Source: Nakamurella antarctica | GTDB taxonomy: Bacteria > Actinomycetota > Actinomycetes > Mycobacteriales > Nakamurellaceae | Length of the DNA: 64,000 nucleotides | Direction of reading: 5' to 3' | Assembly (NCBI RefSeq): GCF_003860405.1 | Contig: NZ_CP034170.1 | Span: 2,976,001-3,040,000, forward strand | In this document: positions 7,676 to 25,379 of the stretch, one piece after another | How the letters are laid out: the number at the start of each line of letters is the position of its first letter | Numbering within the stretch: the stretch's first letter is position 1 | Translations under genes and position numbers: made by a program | The notes under the pieces: model-generated | What the model saw: the letters and a program-made list of their open reading frames with translations, nothing else | Database searches by the model: none | What the model was told of the DNA's origin: nothing

Positions 7676-7689
7676 CGGCTTCGCGTCAC
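7672..7689. terminator. Hairpin between convergent cobU and uxuA
   Basis: A perfect 6-bp stem, GTGACG with CGTCAC, around a GCTTCG loop. It spans the 10-bp gap between the cobU stop and the uxuA stop. There is no clear T-tract, but it is the only candidate terminator between the two convergent units and could work in both directions. Confidence 0.45.
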
Positions 7690-8749
7690 TGAGGCTCTAC
7701 ACCCTCCGGCCGGTTGGTAGGGAAGCCCGGTTTGCCGTAGATGGCCTGTTCCAGCCCGCGGATATAACCGATCGCGAACAACCGACCGAGAGTGCCATAC
7801 GCCGGTCGCTCGTTCGATTCGCCGTGCATTGTGGGCACATGATCTGGCCGCATCGGACCGTTGAAGCCGACCTCGGCGTAGGCCCGCATGCACTCGGGCA
7901 GGTCCGTCTGCCCCTCATCGTGGAAGGTTTCCTCAAAGTCGTCTGCCGTGCCACGGACGTCGCGAAAATGCACGAACGCGATCTGGTCGCAGCTACCGAA
8001 TTCCCTGATCAGCGAAGGCAGGTCCGCTTCCATCAGTGCGAAATTGCCTTGGCAAAAAGTGATGCCATTGCTCGATGATGGCCGGAGCGAAAGCATGCGT
8101 CGAAAGGCGTCCGGCGATCGCATGATGTGCGGAACGTTGCGGCCCATCATCCGCGGCGGGTCGTCAGGGTGCATCCCCAGTTGCACCCCAGCGGCTTCGG
8201 CAACGGGGATCACCGCGTCAAGGAAGTATTGCAATCCGCCCCAAAGCTGGTCGTCGGTGACCTCGCCCGGCGCTGCCAGGGCGGCAGCGCTTCTGAGTCG
8301 GAAGCCCGGAATCCGGTGACAAGAGCGCCGCCGCGGCCAACAATGTCGACACTGGTTCGACCCCAGCTCGAAATAGCCATCCAGTTGTAACAGAGCGTCG
8401 GAATCCCCAGGCGACCCATGGCCTGAATCTGGGTGATCACGTTCTCAATCTGCTCGTCGCGGCCGTCGAGCCCGAGACGCACTTTGTCTAGGGGCGCGGT
8501 GTCTTCAATGGCGATCACTTTCAGGCCGTGATCTGCAAACAGGTCCATATCCCGTTTGATGGCCTTTTCGCCCCAGGGAATGTCATCAGCTTCGGCCCCC
8601 TTGAACCCGTCTTTGCCGACGGAGGCGAACATGCGCTGGTCTTGTTCGGCTCCGTTGAGAAGCGCGACCACGTTGTCTACCCCGCACTGCTTGACCAGCT
8701 TCCACAAGGGGTCGGGTCGGGGGGAAAGCATCTCTGACAGTTGGATCAT
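7686..8749 (-). pseudogene. uxuA: Mannonate dehydratase, frameshifted in this assembly
   Basis: The two halves of one mannonate dehydratase are in different frames. Residues 1 to about 155 read MIQLSEMLSPRPDPLWKLVK and run through LCYNWMAISSWGRTS. The rest continues in the next frame with APGEVTDDQLWGGLQYF, MHPDDPPRM, FCQGNF, FVHFRDVRG and the end of the protein. The break is near 8272-8290, inside a perfect 8-bp inverted repeat, and adding one base restores a 354-residue product of normal size. The enzyme turns D-mannonate into 2-keto-3-deoxygluconate. It is the last gene of a sugar-acid operon. Whether the deletion is real cannot be settled here. Confidence 0.85.
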
Positions 8750-15167: not shown

Positions 15168-16607
15168 ATGCAGAAGCCTACCGGTTCTTACCCGTCGTTG
15201 CTTGTGGACACCACCGGCAAGGACTTGGTGTCGCAGGCCGGTGCGGTGGTGCTTGTCGCAACAGCCCGCAAGGTCGGCTTGGACCGGGAACTGAGCGCGG
15301 CGTTGCGGCCCTGGAAATCACCGTGGGCTGTGATCGATCCTGGAAAGGCGTTGCTGGATATGGCTTTCGCCGTCGCGTTGGGCGGGGATTGCCTCGCTGA
15401 CCTGGCGGTGGTCAGGTCCGAACCGGCTTTGTACGGACCTGTCGCGTCGGATCCGACGATGTCACGACTTGTCAGCGCACTTGCTGTCGATCCTGGTGCG
15501 GCTTTGATAGCGATCAACACCGCCCGCGCGAAGGTGCGGACCAGAGCGTGGAAACTCGCCGGGAGCACGCACCAGACCACAACATTGATGCTCGGCGGCC
15601 ATTGGTGATCGATTTGGATGCCACCCTGATCACCGCCCACTCCGAAAAGGAACAAGCCGCACCGACGTTCAAACGCGGATTCGGTCACCACCCCTTGGGG
15701 GCGTGGATCGACCACGGCGCCGAGGGGACAGGTGAAGCGGCAGCGATGCTGCTACGCAAAGGCAACGCCGGATCCAACACCGCCGACGACCACATCACCG
15801 TGACCAAGCAAGCGTTGGCGCAACTACCATCTCATCGCAGCGGGGGCGGGTCGGGAAGAAAGTGTTGATCCGCACCGACGGCGCCGGCGGCACCCACAGA
15901 TTCGTGGAATGGCTGACAGGGCAGGGGTTATCGTACTCGGTGGGGTTCACCCTCACCGACACCCCTGGTCTGTGAGGGGCCGAGGAACTGGCGTTGATTC
16001 CGCAAAAGGCGTGGACCCCGGCCTACGACGCGGACACCACCCCCCGCGATGGTGCATGGGTGGTGGAACTGATCGAGATGGTCGATCTGACCGGGTGGCC
16101 GCCCGGGATGCGGATCATCGTCCGCGCCGAACGGCCGCACCCCGGGGCGCAACTGCGGTTCACCGACATCGACGGAAACCGGCTCACCGCGTTCGCCACC
16201 AACACCACCCGTGGGCAACTAGCGGACCTGGAACTACGCCACCGCCGCCGGGCCCGCTGCGAAGACCGCATCCGGGCGGCGAAGGATCCCCCAGCCCCAA
16301 AGGGCCGGGAGGTGCCCCCACCGGTCTGCGGGACCTTCCGCTGCACGGATTCAACCAAAACCAAATCTGGCTCGCCGTAGTCGCACTGGCCACCGATATC
16401 ACCGCCTGGTCCCAAATGCTGGCCCTCACCGGCACCGCGGCCCGCAGGTGGGAACCCAAGCGCCTACGCCTGCTGCTGTTCTCAATTGCCGGATACATCG
16501 CCAAACGATCCCGAAGGGTCCACCTACGGCTCTCCGGACACGCACCCCACCGGGCACTGATCGCCGCCGCACTAGCCCGCCTTCATAACCTACCGAACCT
16601 GGCCTGA
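15168..16607 (+). pseudogene. IS1380-family transposase, multiply broken
   Basis: DDE transposase fragments in order. Residues 1-146 begin MQKPTGSYPSLLVDTTGKDL. Next, in another frame, come PLVIDLDATLITAHSEKE (first catalytic Asp region) and KRGFGHHPLGAW. After another shift at a five-G run near 15840 come VLIRTDGAGGTHRFVEWL (second Asp region) and YSVGFTL. An in-frame TGA follows at about 15974. Further on, an insertion of about 32 bp near 16289 displaces the join before TGLRDLPLHGFNQNQIW, and the end is LAVVALATDITAWSQ to HNLPNLA. The mixture of deletions, a stop and an insertion marks true pseudogene decay. Confidence 0.88.
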
Positions 16608-17073: not shown

Positions 17074-17532
17074 CTAAAAATGTTGTAATAGAGTAAATAA
17101 AGGGCCTTGATTGCCCGAAAATACAGTGTTGAATGGTACTTCACCGCTCCCCCATTCAGGGCCTTTGCCAAAAGAGTTAGCCCAGGAGTGGCCTGCAATT
17201 TGTAGGTGTTTGATGAAGGTGGGCAATTCAGCTGGTTCAGATTGAAGAACACAATCCGCTTCGGTAATTATAGTTAGGTAGGCTTTTGCCGGTAGATCGG
17301 AGAGGTCAGTAATGCATTCATTAAAAGCCGGCCAGTTTCCTCCAAAGTAGGAAGGAAATCTAAAAATCTCGGCATATCGCGCAAATAGTGAATCGAGATT
17401 TTTCATGTCCTTCCCATCAATTTTGATAGTTATTCCGAGCTTGTCGGTAACTACGGGCAGGTGCGCCTTTTGCTGATCGAGAAAGTGAACCCAAGGGCCA
17501 CTGCGATCCTTCAAATTATAGTCAGCCATCAT
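17074..17532 (-). CDS. Barstar-family immunity protein
   Basis: A 152-residue protein with the barstar fold signature: IKIDGKDMKNLDSLFARYAEIF then FPSYFGGNWPAFNECITDL. Barstars bind the active site of barnase-type RNases and protect the producer in the cytosol. The RHS gene upstream ends in a barnase-like domain and its stop overlaps this ATG (ATGA), so toxin and antidote are translationally coupled. Compared with barstar of Bacillus amyloliquefaciens, the position of Asp35 is Pro and Asp39 is Glu, so the interface differs. The gene is visibly more AT-rich than its neighbours, as expected for exchangeable immunity cassettes. Confidence 0.88.
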   Translation of the reverse strand: MMADYNLKDRSGPWVHFLDQQKAHLPVVTDKLGITIKIDGKDMKNLDSLFARYAEIFRFPSYFGGNWPAFNECITDLSDLPAKAYLTIITEADCVLQSEPAELPTFIKHLQIAGHSWANSFGKGPEWGSGEVPFNTVFSGNQGPLFTLLQHF

Positions 17533-20500
17533 GGAACCCTCACGAAGCTTTTGTAGTGGTCAGGCGAGTAATAATATGATCCATCCGAACCAGTGACGAT
17601 CCGTTCTCCTCCGGCATTAATGTTACCCGTTGCCGGTACCGTGCCCCACTCGCGGTAGGTGATCTTTGAGCCGTTGGCATCTGTTTGAGGGAGAATGCTG
17701 CTGCCTGACCGGCCATCATTTTGGAAAATCTTGGGAACGGATGGACCCTTAACGCCTGATTGCCAAATCACGCCGTTGGTTCGGATGCTATCGATCACGG
17801 CCTTTGATTCGGCAGGGATCGGCGCGCGAGCAGATACGGCTTTCCCTGCTGAGCTTGCATATTTGATGATGAATCCGGCCGCGAGGCCGAAGCCGGCACC
17901 TTCCGCGGCGGCTATCACTTGATCTCTGACGCTGGCACCGTTGTATGCGCTGCCGGACCAAGTGGCGGTGGCGCTTGCTAGGACTACGCACCCAACGACC
18001 ATTGTTCCAGCTGTTGCAAAGGTGCAGGTCGCCGATGCAAGGGCCCCTGAAGTAGTTACAACAGCAATGGTGAGGACTGCGTTGACGAGCGGGTCTAGGT
18101 CGCTTGCGAAATTTGCTACCACCGAGACCTGAGCCCCCCAGGCTTCCCGCTGCAAATCATATTTGACGACAGCATCCGAGTAACACGACCAACTTTGGCA
18201 GCCTATAAATAGGCGCCAAAGTTCCTGCCCACTGAGCCTGGTGTCGAGTGCGAACTTAGCCACCCATTTGTTGTATTTGTCTTGTGGAAATGGGTGGGTG
18301 ACTGAGACGTCACCCGCCTTGACTGGTGCATTTCCACCTGCTGGGGAGGTAACCGCGGGGACTTTACTGGGGCTACTCGAACGAATTTTGGAGGCGCTCT
18401 TTGCGCCTACAACGATGTTGTCGGACACCAGCGGTGGTGTGATTCTTACTGATGAGAGGTCTCCGGCTGACTGGGGGTCTCTGAGGAGCGCTGTGTGTCT
18501 GACGGGTTTGGGTTGGCCTCCGCAGCGGGGGCCGCCTGTGAAGTCGCTGGAATTGAGTGGGCAGTAACCGAGGTAGTCCGTGTTCGTAGTGGGGTTGCCT
18601 GCGACGAATGCGTACCTGTTTTGGGATTGCGACGCGAACACTGACCCCTGGTAGGGGTCCGGGCTGAGCCAGGTCGCGGTGACGGGGTCGTATTGGCGGG
18701 CGTAATAGGAGCTCAAATGGATGGTGGGATCAGTGATCTCGCCGCCGAACCCAACCCTTGCATTCCACCCAGGGGTGTTGAACGTCTGATTCCCATAGTC
18801 ACCGTAGGTGGCTTGTTCGGTGACAGTTGCGCCGATTGTTTGGGCGATGGGTGAGCCTTGGGCATCGGTGAGGTTCCACCGCACCCCGGTGCCTGGGGTG
18901 GTGAGGGTGGAGGCTTGGATAGCGACGTTGCCGGTGATATCCCGAACCATGTTGGTGGTTCCGGAGGCGGGGTTGGTTTGCGACAGGACACTCAGGCCGT
19001 CCCAGACACTGGAAGTCACAGTGGGTTGCCCCACAGGGCTCCCCGCATTGCCGCCACCCGCGCCGCTGCTGGCGTTACCTGTGCTGCCGGTGGTGGTGGT
19101 GTCGGTGCTGGTTTGGAGGCGGCCGATGCCGTCGTAGGTGTTGTCGGTGGTGCGGCCGTCTCTGGTGATGTGGGTGAGCCGGTTTTGCGGGGACCACCCG
19201 TAGTTGGTGGTGGATCCGTCGACGGTTTCGGTGGTGCGTTGCCCAACCCCGTCGTAGCTGTAGGCGGCGGTGTGGGTGCCGGTGGCGGAAATGATTTGAT
19301 TCAAGTTGTTGAACGTCGCGTTGGTGGTGGTGGGGTCGGCGCCGGTGGTGACTGCGGAAACCCGGTTCCCGGCCGCGTCATACCCATAGGTGGACGCCCC
19401 ATCCCCACCCGCACCGGCTGCTGCAGCTCCGCCAGCACCTGCTCCGCCAGCATCTGCTCCCGTTGCGCCTGTCGTTGCGCCAGCACCTGTGTTGGTGGTG
19501 GTTGTTGCGGTGAGCCGGTTGAGGGGGTCGTAGGTGTGGGTTTGGGTGTTGGACGTGACTGGTTTCGCTGGGCCTGCGGCGACCCCGGCGACAGTCGTGG
19601 GCGTGAGCAAAGCGGCCAGCCCAGCCCGAGGGTCGATGCCGCTGGTGGTGACGGTATTGGTTTCGGTGGTGACGTTGCTGCGGGTGTCATACCCGTAGCC
19701 GAGAACAATTTTGCCGCCCGCCGGTACCTGCCCTTGCGCGGTCGGAACATCCCACCCGGCTAGGTAGTCACCGGGGGCGATCCCACCAGCTGGGTTCCCG
19801 CCGCTGCCGGGGACCACAGGGCCCAACGGTGTGGGGGTGGGGTCGGTGGGGAGTTGGTGGGTGATGGTGGTGACCCGACCAGCTTTGTCATACCCGAAGG
19901 TGGTGTTCACCCCATTCGACCGATCCTGCGACACCAAGCGCCCAGCTTTGTCGAAGGCGTATTTCAACTCCCCAAACGGCGACTTCTGCGCCACCGGCAA
20001 CCCAGCCGCGTCGAAGGTGGTGGTGAGGGTTTCACCGGTGGGGTAGGTCAAGGCGGTTTGTTGGCCAGCTTTGTTGTAGGCGTGGGTGATGGTGGCGCCG
20101 GTGGGGTTAGTTTCGGTGAGGAGCTGCCCAGTGGGGTCGTAGGTCCAGCCGGTGACACCGACACTGTCGGTCATCGCGATGGGTCGACCTACTGCATCGA
20201 ACTCCCACCCCACCGTCGTATCAGGTGCCGGGGCCTGTCCAGGTGCGGCGCCGGTGTTGGCGAACTTTTGCTGGGTGCGCAGTCCGGCAGGGGTGTAGGT
20301 GTTGGTGGTGGTGTCCCCATTGCCATCCACCGAAACCAGCACTTCCCCGACCGGGTCGAAAGTGTTTTTGGTGGTGACAACACCAGCGGCGTTCCTCACC
20401 TGGGTGGGTCGGGACAGGGCATCGAAGTTGGTGGTGGTGGTGTTGCCGTTCGGGTCAGTAACCGAGGTGCGGTTCCCAATTTTGTCGTACCCGTATGTGG

Positions 20501-23500
20501 TGGTCACATTCGCGGCCGCCCCCGCAATGCCGGTGGGGGTTGCTGCTTCGATGAGTGTGGTGAGTTGCCCGACCGGGTCGTACCCGAATGTGGTGACGGT
20601 CCCGGCGGGGTCGGTGACGGTGACGGGTTGCCCAGCTGGGTCGAACCCAGTGGTGGTGACGGCTCCCATCGGGTCAGTAACAGTGGTGACCCTCCCGGCG
20701 GGGTCCAGGGTTTGCGCTGTTACCGCGCCGAGGGGGTCGGTGGCCGTGAGGGCCCGACCCGCTCCGTCGTAGGTGAAGGTGGTGGTGTTCCCAGCGGGGT
20801 CGCTCGCCCCGGTGACGAGGCCCCTGGAGTCGAGGGTTTGGGTGCTGGTGCGCCCCAACGGATCCGTCGATGACGTTAATCGGCCGGCGGTGTCGTAGGT
20901 GAAGGTGTTCACCGCACCCAACGCATCCGTCACAGCGACGAGGTGGCCGCGGGTGTCGTAGGTGTAAGAAGTGACCTGCCCCGCCGGGTCCGTGACCGTC
21001 TTCACTTGCCCGGTGGGGGTGTAGGTGTTGGTGGTGACCCGACCATCGGGGTCTGTGACCGAGGCGATTTGCCCGTTCACTGTGTAGGTGTAAACGATTT
21101 CCGACCCGACAGCGTCGATGGTTTTCACCACCCGGCCCAGCACGTCGTAGATGTAACCGGTGACACCACCGGCGGCGTCGGTGGAAGCAATAACCCGGCC
21201 GACATTGTCGTATTCGGTGGTCCACACCCCACCCCGGGGGTCGGTCACTGTGATGACGCGGCCGTTGGCGTCCACAGTGTTGGTGGACACCGCACCCAAC
21301 GGATCCGTGCTGCTGGTGACTTGCCCGGTGGCATCGAACCCGGTGCCCCAGGTGTTGCCGTTCGGGTCGGTGACACCCACCACCCGATACAGCTGATCCC
21401 GGGTGTATTTGGTAACCGCACCCATCGGATCAGTGGTCGCGGTCAAATTGTCTTCGGTGTTGTATTCAAACCCGGTCACCGCGCCGGTGGGGTCGGTGAC
21501 GGAAGCCATCCGGAACAGCACGTCCCACACGTAAGAAGTGACTGCGCCCGCTGGGTCGGTGGAGGTCAGGACATGACCGTTGCGGTCATACGTGTATGAG
21601 GTGACTGCCCCCGCCGGGTCAGTGACTGTGGACAGGTTCCCGGCGGGGTCGTAGCCGAAGGTGGACGTGTTCCCCGCCGCATCCGTGGTACTCACGGCTT
21701 GACCGGCGTTGTCATAGCCAAGGGTGGTGATGTTCCCGGCGGGGTCGGTGCTGGACGTTAACTGCCCCACCGAATTCCACGCATACAGGGTGGTTTCCCC
21801 ACCCGGATTAGTTTGAGACAGGACGTTCCCCGCCGCATCGAACGTCGCCGCAGTTGTGGACCCATCCGGCAGATGCGCACCGGTGACCAAACCCTGCGAG
21901 GTGACATCGAAGGTGGTGGTCCGGGTGGCGCCGCCCACCCCGCCGGTGTCAGTGCTGGAAGTAACCGTCCCAGTCTGGGAGTACGTAAACGACGTGACTG
22001 TGCCGTCGGGTTGGGTGATGCTGGTGGTGTTTCCGGCGGTGTCGAAGGTGTAATTCCAGGTCCGGCCCAACTGGTCGGTGGAGGCCACCACATTGTTGGC
22101 GCCGTCGTAGGCGAAACGTTTCACCCCGCCAGCAGCATCGACAATGGCGGTGACTCGGGAGGCGGTGTCGAATTCGTAGGTGGTGTTGTTGCCTTCGTTG
22201 TCGGTGTAAACGGTGCTGCCAGCGTTGTAGGTGAAGCGGCGGATGTTGTTTTGGGCGTCGCGTTGTTCCACGACCCGACCCGCGGTGTCGTAGGTGTTCA
22301 CCAAATACAGCACATTTAGGGGGTCGGTGGCTGTCAGCAACTGGTGGGCGCCGTCGTAGGTGAAGGTTCGCACCCCACCGTCCGGGTAGGTGATGGATGT
22401 GAGGTCACCCGCGTTGTAGGTGAAACCCCACACCCGCCCGCCCGGCACCGTGTATGAGGTGATGTGACCGGCGTCGTCGGAGCCGACGGTGATGACTTGA
22501 CCGTTGGTGTCAGTGATCGAAGCTAGGGGTAGGAACTGGGCGTTCGCCGAAGGGGCGCCGTATTGCAGGGTGTAGCCGTGACCGCGGGCATCAATGTATG
22601 AGGCGAGCTGCCCGATGCCTTCCACACCTGCGGCATCAAAAACCCACGTCCGCCCATCCGGGGACGTCATCGTTAACCGGCCGCTGCCAGTATCAGCCAA
22701 GGCAAGGTTCGCCCCTGGGTCCGAGGTGAAACCACCAGCCCCATCAGGGTTGAAGACGTAGGACGCGCCGTCGCCACCGGCCATCATCACCGACCCGTCG
22801 ATGAACCGCTGCACATGCGCGCCCGGCCCCATCGACCACCCGGCGCCGTTTCGGGTGAGGCGGCCGTCTTGGGAGTTATACGTCAACCCCACATCCACCC
22901 CGCTGTCACCGGGCAGGCTGTAGATGGGCAGCTGCTCAATCAGGTTCCCGGTGGTGAACGCCACCGGCTCGGCCCCATACGTTTGATAGTTGTGCACACC
23001 CAGCTGCCGCCACCGGGCTTTCTCGGCATCCGAGGGTGGGGCCGGCCAACCAGTGGTGGCGGGGGTGCCGCAATCAAACCCCGCCCCCGTCAAGTACTGC
23101 GCGAACGAGGCGAACAAACCGTTGGCGATCGATTGGAACCCGTCGTGGATGACCGCCCAGTCGTAGTTGTTGTCCAAGTTCAACACCTCAAGGTGCGTGT
23201 AAGCGCCAGCAATATTCGCAAACGCCGCATGCGGCACCCCATTAGGTAGGGCGTTCCACTTCTGGGCCGGGCGACCCGTGTATGTGGGCAGACCAGCGAT
23301 GATGTTCCCGGCCAACGCGTCATCAGCGGGGCGATTGAAGTTGAAAACCTTCGTCCCACCCTGCGACGGATTGGTGCCCCAGGCATGCCCCTCCGGGGCG
23401 TCGAAAGCGATCGTGGCGGTCAAAGCCGGATTCGCCGCCGCCGCAGTAGCCGCCCGCATCGACTCCGACACCACCCTCGTGTTCGGGTCATCGCGGGTGA

Positions 23501-24520
23501 GCGTCACCGTCGCTAAACACTGCTGCTCCAACAACACCTGCACGGCCTTGGACAACGCAATGTTGTAAGGCAACTCCGACGCCACCACACCCGGTGAAGT
23601 CGTGTTCGCCACACCATCATCAGGGTCCAACACAATCGACGGCCCAACAGGGGCAACGAACGGGAAACCGATCACCACGAACTGCGACAAATGCGCAGAC
23701 TCCCCCACCACCCTGCCCGACCCCGCAGCCCCCGACCCCGCATCAAACCGGGACGCCAACGCAATCCACGGGTCGCCGGTGTTTTCGCGGGTGAAGATCT
23801 TCACCGTGGCCGGGTCCACCCCAGCCGCGGCCAACTGTGTTTTATCCACGTCGAAGGTGACAGTGACACCTGGGTCCACCGACGTCACAATCACCGGGCC
23901 GTCAGGGACTTTCACCGTCGTCACCGCAGCCTCAAACCGCGTCACCCCCACCCCAGCACTATCAGTGGCAGTAACTTCCACCGGCGCTGACACCGCAACA
24001 CCATCCACCGCAATAGCCGCAGCCTCAGAAACCGTCACCGGTAACTGCGCAACATCAACGGCCAACACACCTGCGGTTTTCTCACCACCAAAAACGATCG
24101 ACGCACCCACCGCATCAGCAGACACCATGTCACCAGACCCCGGGGTGACCCGACCGGAACCAACAACAACATCCCCACCCACACCGCCTGTGCCAGAGCT
24201 ACCGGAACTGCCGAGGGTTGCAGGATCCGTACCAGCAGGACCGGTGCCAGTGGGGTCGGTGCCAGCCGGATCAGCGGGGCAGAACGGATGTTCGCAGCCG
24301 CCGCGGCCCGCACCTTCGCCAGCGTCACCACACCCGCCGCCGCTGTCCGTTCCTTCACGGCTTGGGCTGCGATACCGGCGTAATCAACGACCGGAATGGG
24401 GAACGCCTGCGCCGGAGCGACAGCAGAAACCACCAACGCTGCGGCAATCACCCCCGCCAACACACCGCGCATCCCACCCACACGCACACGAGCACCCACA
24501 AACCCCGAAGCTGCCCGCAT
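17529..24520 (-). CDS. RHS-repeat polymorphic toxin with C-terminal barnase-type RNase, frameshifted near N-terminus
   Basis: A secreted RHS giant of about 2330 residues. From the ATG at 24520 there is a signal peptide (hydrophobic GVLAGVIAAALVVSAV, cleavage after PAQA). About 50 codons later the frame must shift; one missing base, most likely around 24350-24380, restores the join, and the rest is one open frame of over 2217 codons starting before 24182. It then has a Thr/Gly-rich Cys-containing linker, a beta-rich N-domain, and dozens of YD/RHS repeats (YDxxGxxxxxTDPxG) up to a core end YDPVTATWLSPDPYQG. A variable tip with hydrophobic stretches follows, then a barnase-like domain (last ~96 residues). 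Its YREW, GERIVTGSDG and SPDHYKSF match barnase Glu73, Arg87 and His102 with near-identical spacing (here E2178, R2194, H2209 in the main frame). Confidence 0.9.
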
Positions 24521-25379
24521 CAGATCGAACCCATTTCATCAGAAGACGCAGAACCAGCACCAGCACCCGCAGAGCCGTTTGGCCCACCGTCGGGCCGGCG
24601 GCGCCGAGACACCGCCAACAACCCAGCACCCAGCAACAACAGCACCCCAGCCAAAACCACCCACACCGCCACATTCACACCCGTCACCGGCAACGCACCC
24701 CCACCGGAACCGCAAACACACCCACAGGTCTCACCACACCGCCGCCGCTGGCAGCAACACCACCACCCGCACCACGGCTAGCCTGCGCGTCACGGCTAGC
24801 CTGCGCGGCGGCAGCAGCCGCGGCCGCTGCAGCGGTGTCATCAAACAGTTTTTTCAGCTGCTTAGCATCCGAAACACCGTCGGCGTTGAAGTCCTCAGAC
24901 CCCACAGCGCAAGTCACGTCGCCGCAGATCAACACCTCCACCCAATCGGGGATACCGTCGGCGTCAGCGTCAGCGGAACCGTCCTCACAACTAGCGCTCC
25001 CACAGATGATCTGTTCCACATAATCAGGAATGCCATCGGCGTCAGCGTCAGCCTTCGGGTCAGCACATACCGCCGTGCCGCACGCCCGCAGCTCCACCCA
25101 ATCAGGAACACCATCCCCATCACTGTCCTGCCCCGGCGTCAAACACGTCGCAGTACCGCACACCTGACGCTCAACAACATCAGTGATCCGATCACCATCA
25201 GAATCGCACTTTGTGGCATCCACCCCCACACACGACACCGACACATCACCAAGCGCTGCAGAGACGCCCAAAGGAGATCTCGCTGAGGCAGCGATAGGCG
25301 TATCTGCGACAGCAGTGCTCACTGGTAACGCAAAAAGAACCATCAACACACTGGTGACACCCAGTAAGAACTGACGCAT
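24520..25379 (-). CDS. Sortase-anchored Ca-binding repeat protein (TSP3-like, LPVTG), frameshifted near C-terminus
   Basis: A surface protein of about 286 residues. I start it at ATG 25379: signal peptide MRQFLLGVTSVLMVLFALPV with cleavage near AVA-D. Residues about 58-180 hold four 26-residue repeats and a partial fifth, each DxDxDGxxDxVE followed by CGxxxC, the thrombospondin-type-3 Ca-binding pattern. An Ala-rich helix and Gly linker follow. The frame then breaks near 24731-24750; one added base leads into CGETCGCVCGSGGG, the sortase signal LPVTG, a membrane helix and a RRRR tail. Its stop overlaps the RHS start by one base (TGATG). It likely presents on the cell wall beside the RHS toxin. 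Confidence 0.85.

Follow-up and report, generated by a model that had tools for sequence, protein, structure and literature searches.

In the genome of Nakamurella antarctica (assembly GCF_003860405.1, contig NZ_CP034170.1), the gene for a giant RHS protein is situated between a gene for a small secreted protein with acidic CGxxxC repeats, hereafter the partner, and a gene for a barstar-family protein. The three genes occupy 25379-17074 on the minus strand of the window, i.e., the whole 64,000-nucleotide stretch analyzed (positions 2,976,001 to 3,040,000 of the contig), and every operon feature given below lies on that strand. They are joined by stop/start overlaps, TGATG at 24522-24518 between the partner and RHS genes and ATGA at 17532-17529 between the RHS and barstar genes, exactly as an earlier note on this DNA had described. 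The RHS protein matches the RHS repeats of PF05593 with an E-value of 6.4e-158; 27 PF05593 stretches fall in 19002-24182, and the repeat region proper can be placed approximately at 19002-22751. It is preceded by DUF6531 (22752-22970; 31.6 bits, cut-off 24.1) and followed by the RHS repeat-associated core (Rhs_assc_core, 18567-18806; 46.2 bits, cut-off 32.5). That a small wall-anchored protein accompanies a giant RHS toxin whose tip can be exchanged suggests that the former holds or delivers the latter at the cell surface. We give an even chance to the reading that the locus and its two further copies in this genome are sortase-anchored modules for display or delivery, in which a constant delivery part is combined with an exchangeable payload.

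The pairing of partner and RHS genes recurs outside N. antarctica. When GTDB species genomes were scanned with P0001, the intact partner from another own copy, 53 loci were returned; in the four top-ranked ones, found in Microbacterium testaceum (twice), a Microbacterium metagenome-assembled genome (MAG) and a Leifsonia MAG, with identities of 49-61% in the best segment, the partner overlaps an RHS gene of 2063-2163 amino acids (4/4). Profiles of six partners (A1) and of the RHS N-terminus (A3) were also searched; because only part of the candidates in each genome were scored (between 5 and 9 in the large samples), some loci may have been missed. The partner family was detected with A1 in the genus of locus L014 (13 of 366 genomes), in the family of locus L017 (12 of 299) and, in a phylum sample of 396 genomes, in the own genome alone. 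There were 31 partner matches, of which 30 were read for neighbors and one, the fragment G721:C177, was left out. An RHS-like open reading frame (ORF) lies directly behind the partner in 28 of these 30 non-own loci, a recurrence that argues against pairing by chance. At the 28 junctions, where the nearest start codon was taken by script, a one-base overlap is seen 18 times, TGATG 6 times and a start just past the stop 4 times; the RHS gene of L143 is in two ORFs, and that of L146 is cut by the contig end. Within the 299 genomes of one family, all 13 TSP3-LAXTG genes stand directly upstream of one RHS type, and, reciprocally, the same 12 genomes gave 13 matches to A3, every one of them located 390-771 bases behind a partner match on the same strand (13/13). 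The co-occurrence with RHS genes in related genomes on which the proposal of the earlier note depended is thus present.

Two broader patterns were considered and rejected. TSP3-like proteins are not generally paired with RHS, since an RHS-motif ORF accompanies 2 of the 49 weaker hits (L018-L066), as judged by a regular expression applied to fetched DNA stretches of unequal length; the Acidimicrobiia match L018 (49% identity) has no RHS gene behind it. Nor is the pair a trait of the own genus: among 101 genomes (the own one and 100 relatives), 8 others gave weak partial matches, the best with an E-value of 3.2e-8. The two weaker hits with a large RHS-motif ORF near the TSP3-like match (L057, 10001-19104; L035, 2969-9466) come from a Verrucomicrobium and a Kiritimatiellae MAG.

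Divergence of the partner parallels that of the RHS N-terminus, and tips are exchanged. Identities of the two are correlated at 0.87 over 29 loci, and none of 2000 permutations gave a value as high. Thirteen pairs of loci, not independent of one another, share more than 85% N-terminal identity, and 12 of them have unrelated last 120 residues. Four genomes carry two modules that differ from each other in both genes (0.50-0.54 and 0.57-0.59), and the same module type, compared across three of these genomes, is alike in both (0.84-0.98 and 0.86-0.98). Because it changes along with the N-terminus of the RHS protein even where tips are swapped, the partner is part of the constant portion, as a dedicated delivery partner would be expected to be.

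A feature added by this analysis is the make-up of the RHS N-terminus: a ZU5-like domain with an invariant His-Leu-Ser, followed by a degenerate peptidoglycan-amidase domain, in 30/30 aligned rows. The region at 22623-24182 was modeled from these rows, from which the own copy at 1.47 Mb was excluded because of a frame break there; the mean predicted local distance difference test (pLDDT) score is 76.4, and ten-residue blocks in residues 1-370 range from 68 to 96. Two domains are seen in the model. The second (residues 178-369; 23076-23651) matches peptidoglycan amidases in a fold search, with 4rn7 at Z 23.5 (root-mean-square deviation, rmsd, 2.0; 177 aligned), 1jwq (CwlV) at Z 21.5 (rmsd 2.2; 172 aligned) and 7tj4_B (LytH) at Z 21.1. 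A sequence profile, used without the model, also matches 4rn7 (2e-10) and 1jwq (5.2e-6), and Pfam Amidase_3 scores 26.7 bits in L017, just below its cut-off of 27, and is not listed for L014 or L010. The fold is that of Amidase_3 enzymes such as 4rn7, CwlV and LytH, but the His, Glu, His set of zinc ligands is broken, with two of the three absent in 30/30 rows. The first His would be expected at residues 186-191, a position derived from DPGHGG, which we take to be the motif that holds it; all rows read DPD[DN] and lack His there, and a His is present at residue 193 in 9 rows. At the second zinc-His position, 30/30 rows have A or G, whereas two Glu are invariant and Glu203 is kept in 30/30. Because two ligands are missing, the amidase-fold domain as modeled is probably not an enzyme but a binding module. 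The acidic loop DPD[DN][DGN] at the site of the would-be zinc (23607-23627) resembles a calcium-binding loop in many relatives, and a change of metal at this site is possible.

The first domain (residues 3-176; 23655-24176) matches ZU5 domains in the fold search (3f59_C, Z 10.9, rmsd 3.1, 129 aligned), and the His-Leu-Ser at its end (23685-23693), invariant in 30/30 rows, lies between its last two strands in the model. Autoproteolytic sites of the ZU5/GPS type consist of HL or HF before Ser or Thr. ZU5 has already been described as an N-terminal autopeptidase of RHS toxins, with a CxH motif named, in section 8 of PMC3482391. In the domain analyzed here, the Cys of CxH is replaced by Ser, Leu or Ile, so that self-cleavage at His-Leu-Ser is only a guess.

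The open part of the partner gene (24684-25379) encodes a signal peptide and acidic, Cys-rich TSP3-like repeats. The CGxxxC repeats are clear and conserved across aligned relatives; the family assignment is less firm than the earlier label of calcium-type TSP3 repeats implied, with TSP3_bac at 22.8 bits (Pfam cut-off 25) and the relatives scanned likewise below cut-offs. An AlphaFold2 model of the repeats, built from an alignment without L146, has a pLDDT of 87.8 and places helices every 26 residues, and a fold search with it gave no significant solved structure (COMP, E 2.1, and thrombospondin-2, E 7.0, were listed; no Z of at least 2). The sorting segment of the intact P0001 is recognized as TIGR01167 LPXTG_anchor (24.3 bits, cut-off 15.9), a family not listed in the scan of the L014 and L017 partners. 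The motif reads LAxTG in 27 of the 30 non-own loci, and the own copies have LPVTG. Actinobacterial class E sortases recognize LAXTG (PMC5148588). The own genome encodes three sortases, one of class E and two matching class F, one of the latter below the cut-off; by sequence, the class E enzyme may be a candidate for the LPVTG of the own copies.

Such repeats would also suit a wall-anchored adhesin that brings the producer to its target and never touches the RHS protein, the two sharing only a task, which we regard as unlikely. The repeats weakly match the cohesion and gliding proteins MtsD and CglD, far below cut-off, and similar repeats are found in many surface proteins without RHS nearby, as the weaker hits above illustrate. 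Against an adhesin speak the link to a single RHS type with its own N-terminus, 13/13 in both directions, and the composition of the mature partner, which is mainly repeats, and in which neither the own copy nor L017 has another Pfam domain above cut-off (FG-GAP_3 passes in L014, with 29.2 bits against 26.9).

The payload of the window copy is a ribonuclease with a barstar. The three own copies share 88-93% DNA identity up to window position 18426, and beyond it no match of at least 300 bases is found; the variable C-terminal part (17529-18425) is not shared with these. Its tip (17535-17846) matches PF00545 ribonuclease with 31 bits (cut-off 24), and the only solved chains matching it are 1py3 (E 1.1e-4) and 1mgr, RNase Sa3 (E 0.011), both of which we take to be Streptomyces ribonucleases. 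The barnase-like triad read there earlier is recovered insofar as Glu, Arg and His align with these chains; they are presumably the catalytic residues. The gene directly behind the tip (17074-17532) is a barstar-family gene, as first read, with 62.6 bits for PF01337 (cut-off 23.4); a search of solved structures (PDB) with its product gave no useful match. Judged by these family matches, tip and antidote are of known types, and the tip is predicted to be toxic and the barstar to neutralize it. A 575-base stretch elsewhere in the genome was considered as a barstar end and rejected, as it is the end of the RHS core, behind which the tips differ. Close behind the barstar gene (15168-16607), fragments of a transposase-like gene, spread over several frames, were noted by eye.

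Further tips lie behind the other two own copies. The partial RHS genes there (L007/L008, G000:C1:1482861-1489441; L009, G000:C1:1849143-1845768) have about 0.8-1.9 kb of core in common with the main genes and carry tips of their own, some followed by small genes. Such an arrangement of cassettes is known from polymorphic toxins. One of these tip regions appeared HINT-like by eye. Across loci, a Pfam scan of 27 tips, without L143, L146 and the tips of the other two own copies, gave five families with one member each: Ntox24, HNH, HNH_5, Ribonuclease and DUF6518.

The earlier reading requires correction: the three genes are real, but the window copy does not connect in frame the pieces that had been read as one protein. 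The partner gene runs from the ATG at 25379 to a stop at 24684-24686, and the LPVTG with its hydrophobic segment and Arg-rich tail, although present at 24693-24523, is in a different frame from the repeats. Similarly, signal peptides had been reported for the first two genes, and both N-termini are signal-peptide-like as judged by eye; that of the RHS gene (24404-24520, end estimated by eye) is in a different frame from the RHS body, for which the first listed start of the open frame is 24182. Both breaks, approximately at 24702 and 24277, are one-base differences in homopolymer length, the former relative to the same-genome paralogues and the latter relative to the intact copy. The window belongs to a one-contig genome of 3.38 Mb, in which the other two copies span about 1.474-1.482 Mb and 1.859-1.851 Mb. 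The latter, the 1.85 Mb copy, is open across both genes (RHS 2314 amino acids; partner 286 amino acids, P0001), and the former has one such homopolymer difference, in its RHS gene.

These breaks could mean that the module in the window is a spare undergoing decay or phase variation, with the intact 1.85 Mb copy functional in this strain, which we consider possible though doubtful. Two breaks in one copy and one in another would fit, as would the mobile-element remnants that adjoin the copies by eye. A uxuA-like gene (7686-8749) and a short-chain dehydrogenase gene (8814 to about 9620) of the same window, however, each appear by eye to be split between two frames at G/C-rich places, which makes assembly error likely for the operon as well and, in our view, the simplest reading of the frames. 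It is possible that this copy is non-functional or was assembled wrongly.

From the linkage, co-divergence, domain make-up and tip exchange described above, we infer binding, export, display and contact killing by the module in the following form. The constant part would comprise the secreted, sortase-anchored partner and the N-terminus and shell of the RHS protein, and the payload the C-terminal tip and its immunity gene, in the window copy a PF00545-family RNase and a barstar. Both proteins would be exported by Sec, and the small partner would become anchored in the wall. The ZU5-like and dead-amidase N-terminus, which may bind the partner, peptidoglycan or both, would hold the RHS shell and the enclosed tip at the surface. 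Contact with a neighbor would lead to release and entry of the tip, and the immunity protein would spare sister cells. A more elaborate version, which we put forward as a long shot, is a self-cleaving, wall-tethered launcher: the RHS protein would cut itself between HL and S in its ZU5-like domain and remain non-covalently clamped to the wall through the dead amidase and a Ca2+-stiffened anchored partner, until neighbor contact or pulling detaches the loaded RHS shell.

By its tip and immunity gene, the module appears to be an ordinary RHS polymorphic toxin: RHS repeats and core, a constant body with exchanged tips and an adjoining immunity gene are all present. In PMC3482391, such systems have the same RHS shell, exchangeable tip and immunity gene behind it, with barnase-type tips and barstar listed, downstream tip cassettes and an N-terminal ZU5. 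Unlike the systems described there, the present module has a sortase-anchored repeat protein one to one upstream and a degenerate amidase behind the ZU5-like domain; none of the terms sortase, LPXTG, TSP3 and thrombospondin occurs in the searched text of PMC3482391. In Streptococcus suis, a WapA toxin has neighboring SecF-like and SrtB genes (PMC12704120), likewise a Gram-positive RHS toxin with a signal sequence and nearby delivery genes; there, the toxin has a LysM domain and the neighbors are a SecF-like protein and a sortase, whereas here the neighbor is a sortase substrate.

In Neisseria, MafA is encoded on the same islands as MafB and is needed for MafB secretion (PMC7738311); there, as at the present locus, the gene for a constant protein anchored at the surface precedes that for a polymorphic toxin (also PMC3482391). 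Accordingly, the partner could be an export helper, needed for passage of the RHS protein through or out of the thick wall, without serving as a lasting tether, an explanation we find improbable. MafA is a lipid-anchored outer-membrane protein, no relative of which turned up here, although no search was aimed at one, and its toxin carries MafB-N, whereas the module here has a sortase signal, which would fix the partner in the wall, together with calcium-type repeats and RHS. In the alignment, neither the own partner nor that of L014 has a lipobox Cys behind its hydrophobic signal segment, a sortase signal taking its place, and MafB-N is not among the Pfam matches of the RHS protein. By analogy, a display or delivery module of the kind proposed would work like MafA/MafB and resemble the S. 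suis WapA loci while being a member of neither.

Several observations weigh against the display or delivery reading. Two of the 30 partner loci, L127 and L133, which were left out of later alignments, have no RHS ORF behind the partner, and LAxTG was not found in these two or in L145, which has an RHS ORF. In the phylum sample, A3 matched the own genome and one other, G367, whose RHS gene (L167, 4063-9891) has a signal peptide and a degenerate amidase domain, without the ZU5-like domain and without a TSP3-LPXTG partner. No sortase gene was found in the operon or anywhere in the 64-kb window. Co-divergence is also explained by plain operon inheritance and is therefore no proof of contact. Finally, the window copy has its two frame breaks within about 430 bases of each other. 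The earlier observation was thus right in substance and incomplete on the frames, and its interpretation is partly supported: linkage and co-divergence favor a dedicated partner, which may hold, display or export the RHS protein, an adhesin role being a less likely alternative.

PADLOC gave no match for the four module proteins submitted, and no description of a TSP3-LPXTG partner of RHS was found in the openly licensed PMC literature. The tip and antidote of this locus are of known types; the linked sortase-anchored partner and the dead amidase behind the ZU5-like domain set it apart from the RHS systems compared above. Surface retention of Gram-positive RHS toxins and their transfer to a neighbor are, in our judgment, poorly understood, and a one-to-one sortase-anchored partner together with a dead-amidase N-terminus provides concrete, testable parts. 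The partner gene can serve as a marker for finding such toxins in actinobacteria, and the launcher version, if true, would represent a dedicated actinobacterial surface delivery system with changeable payloads.

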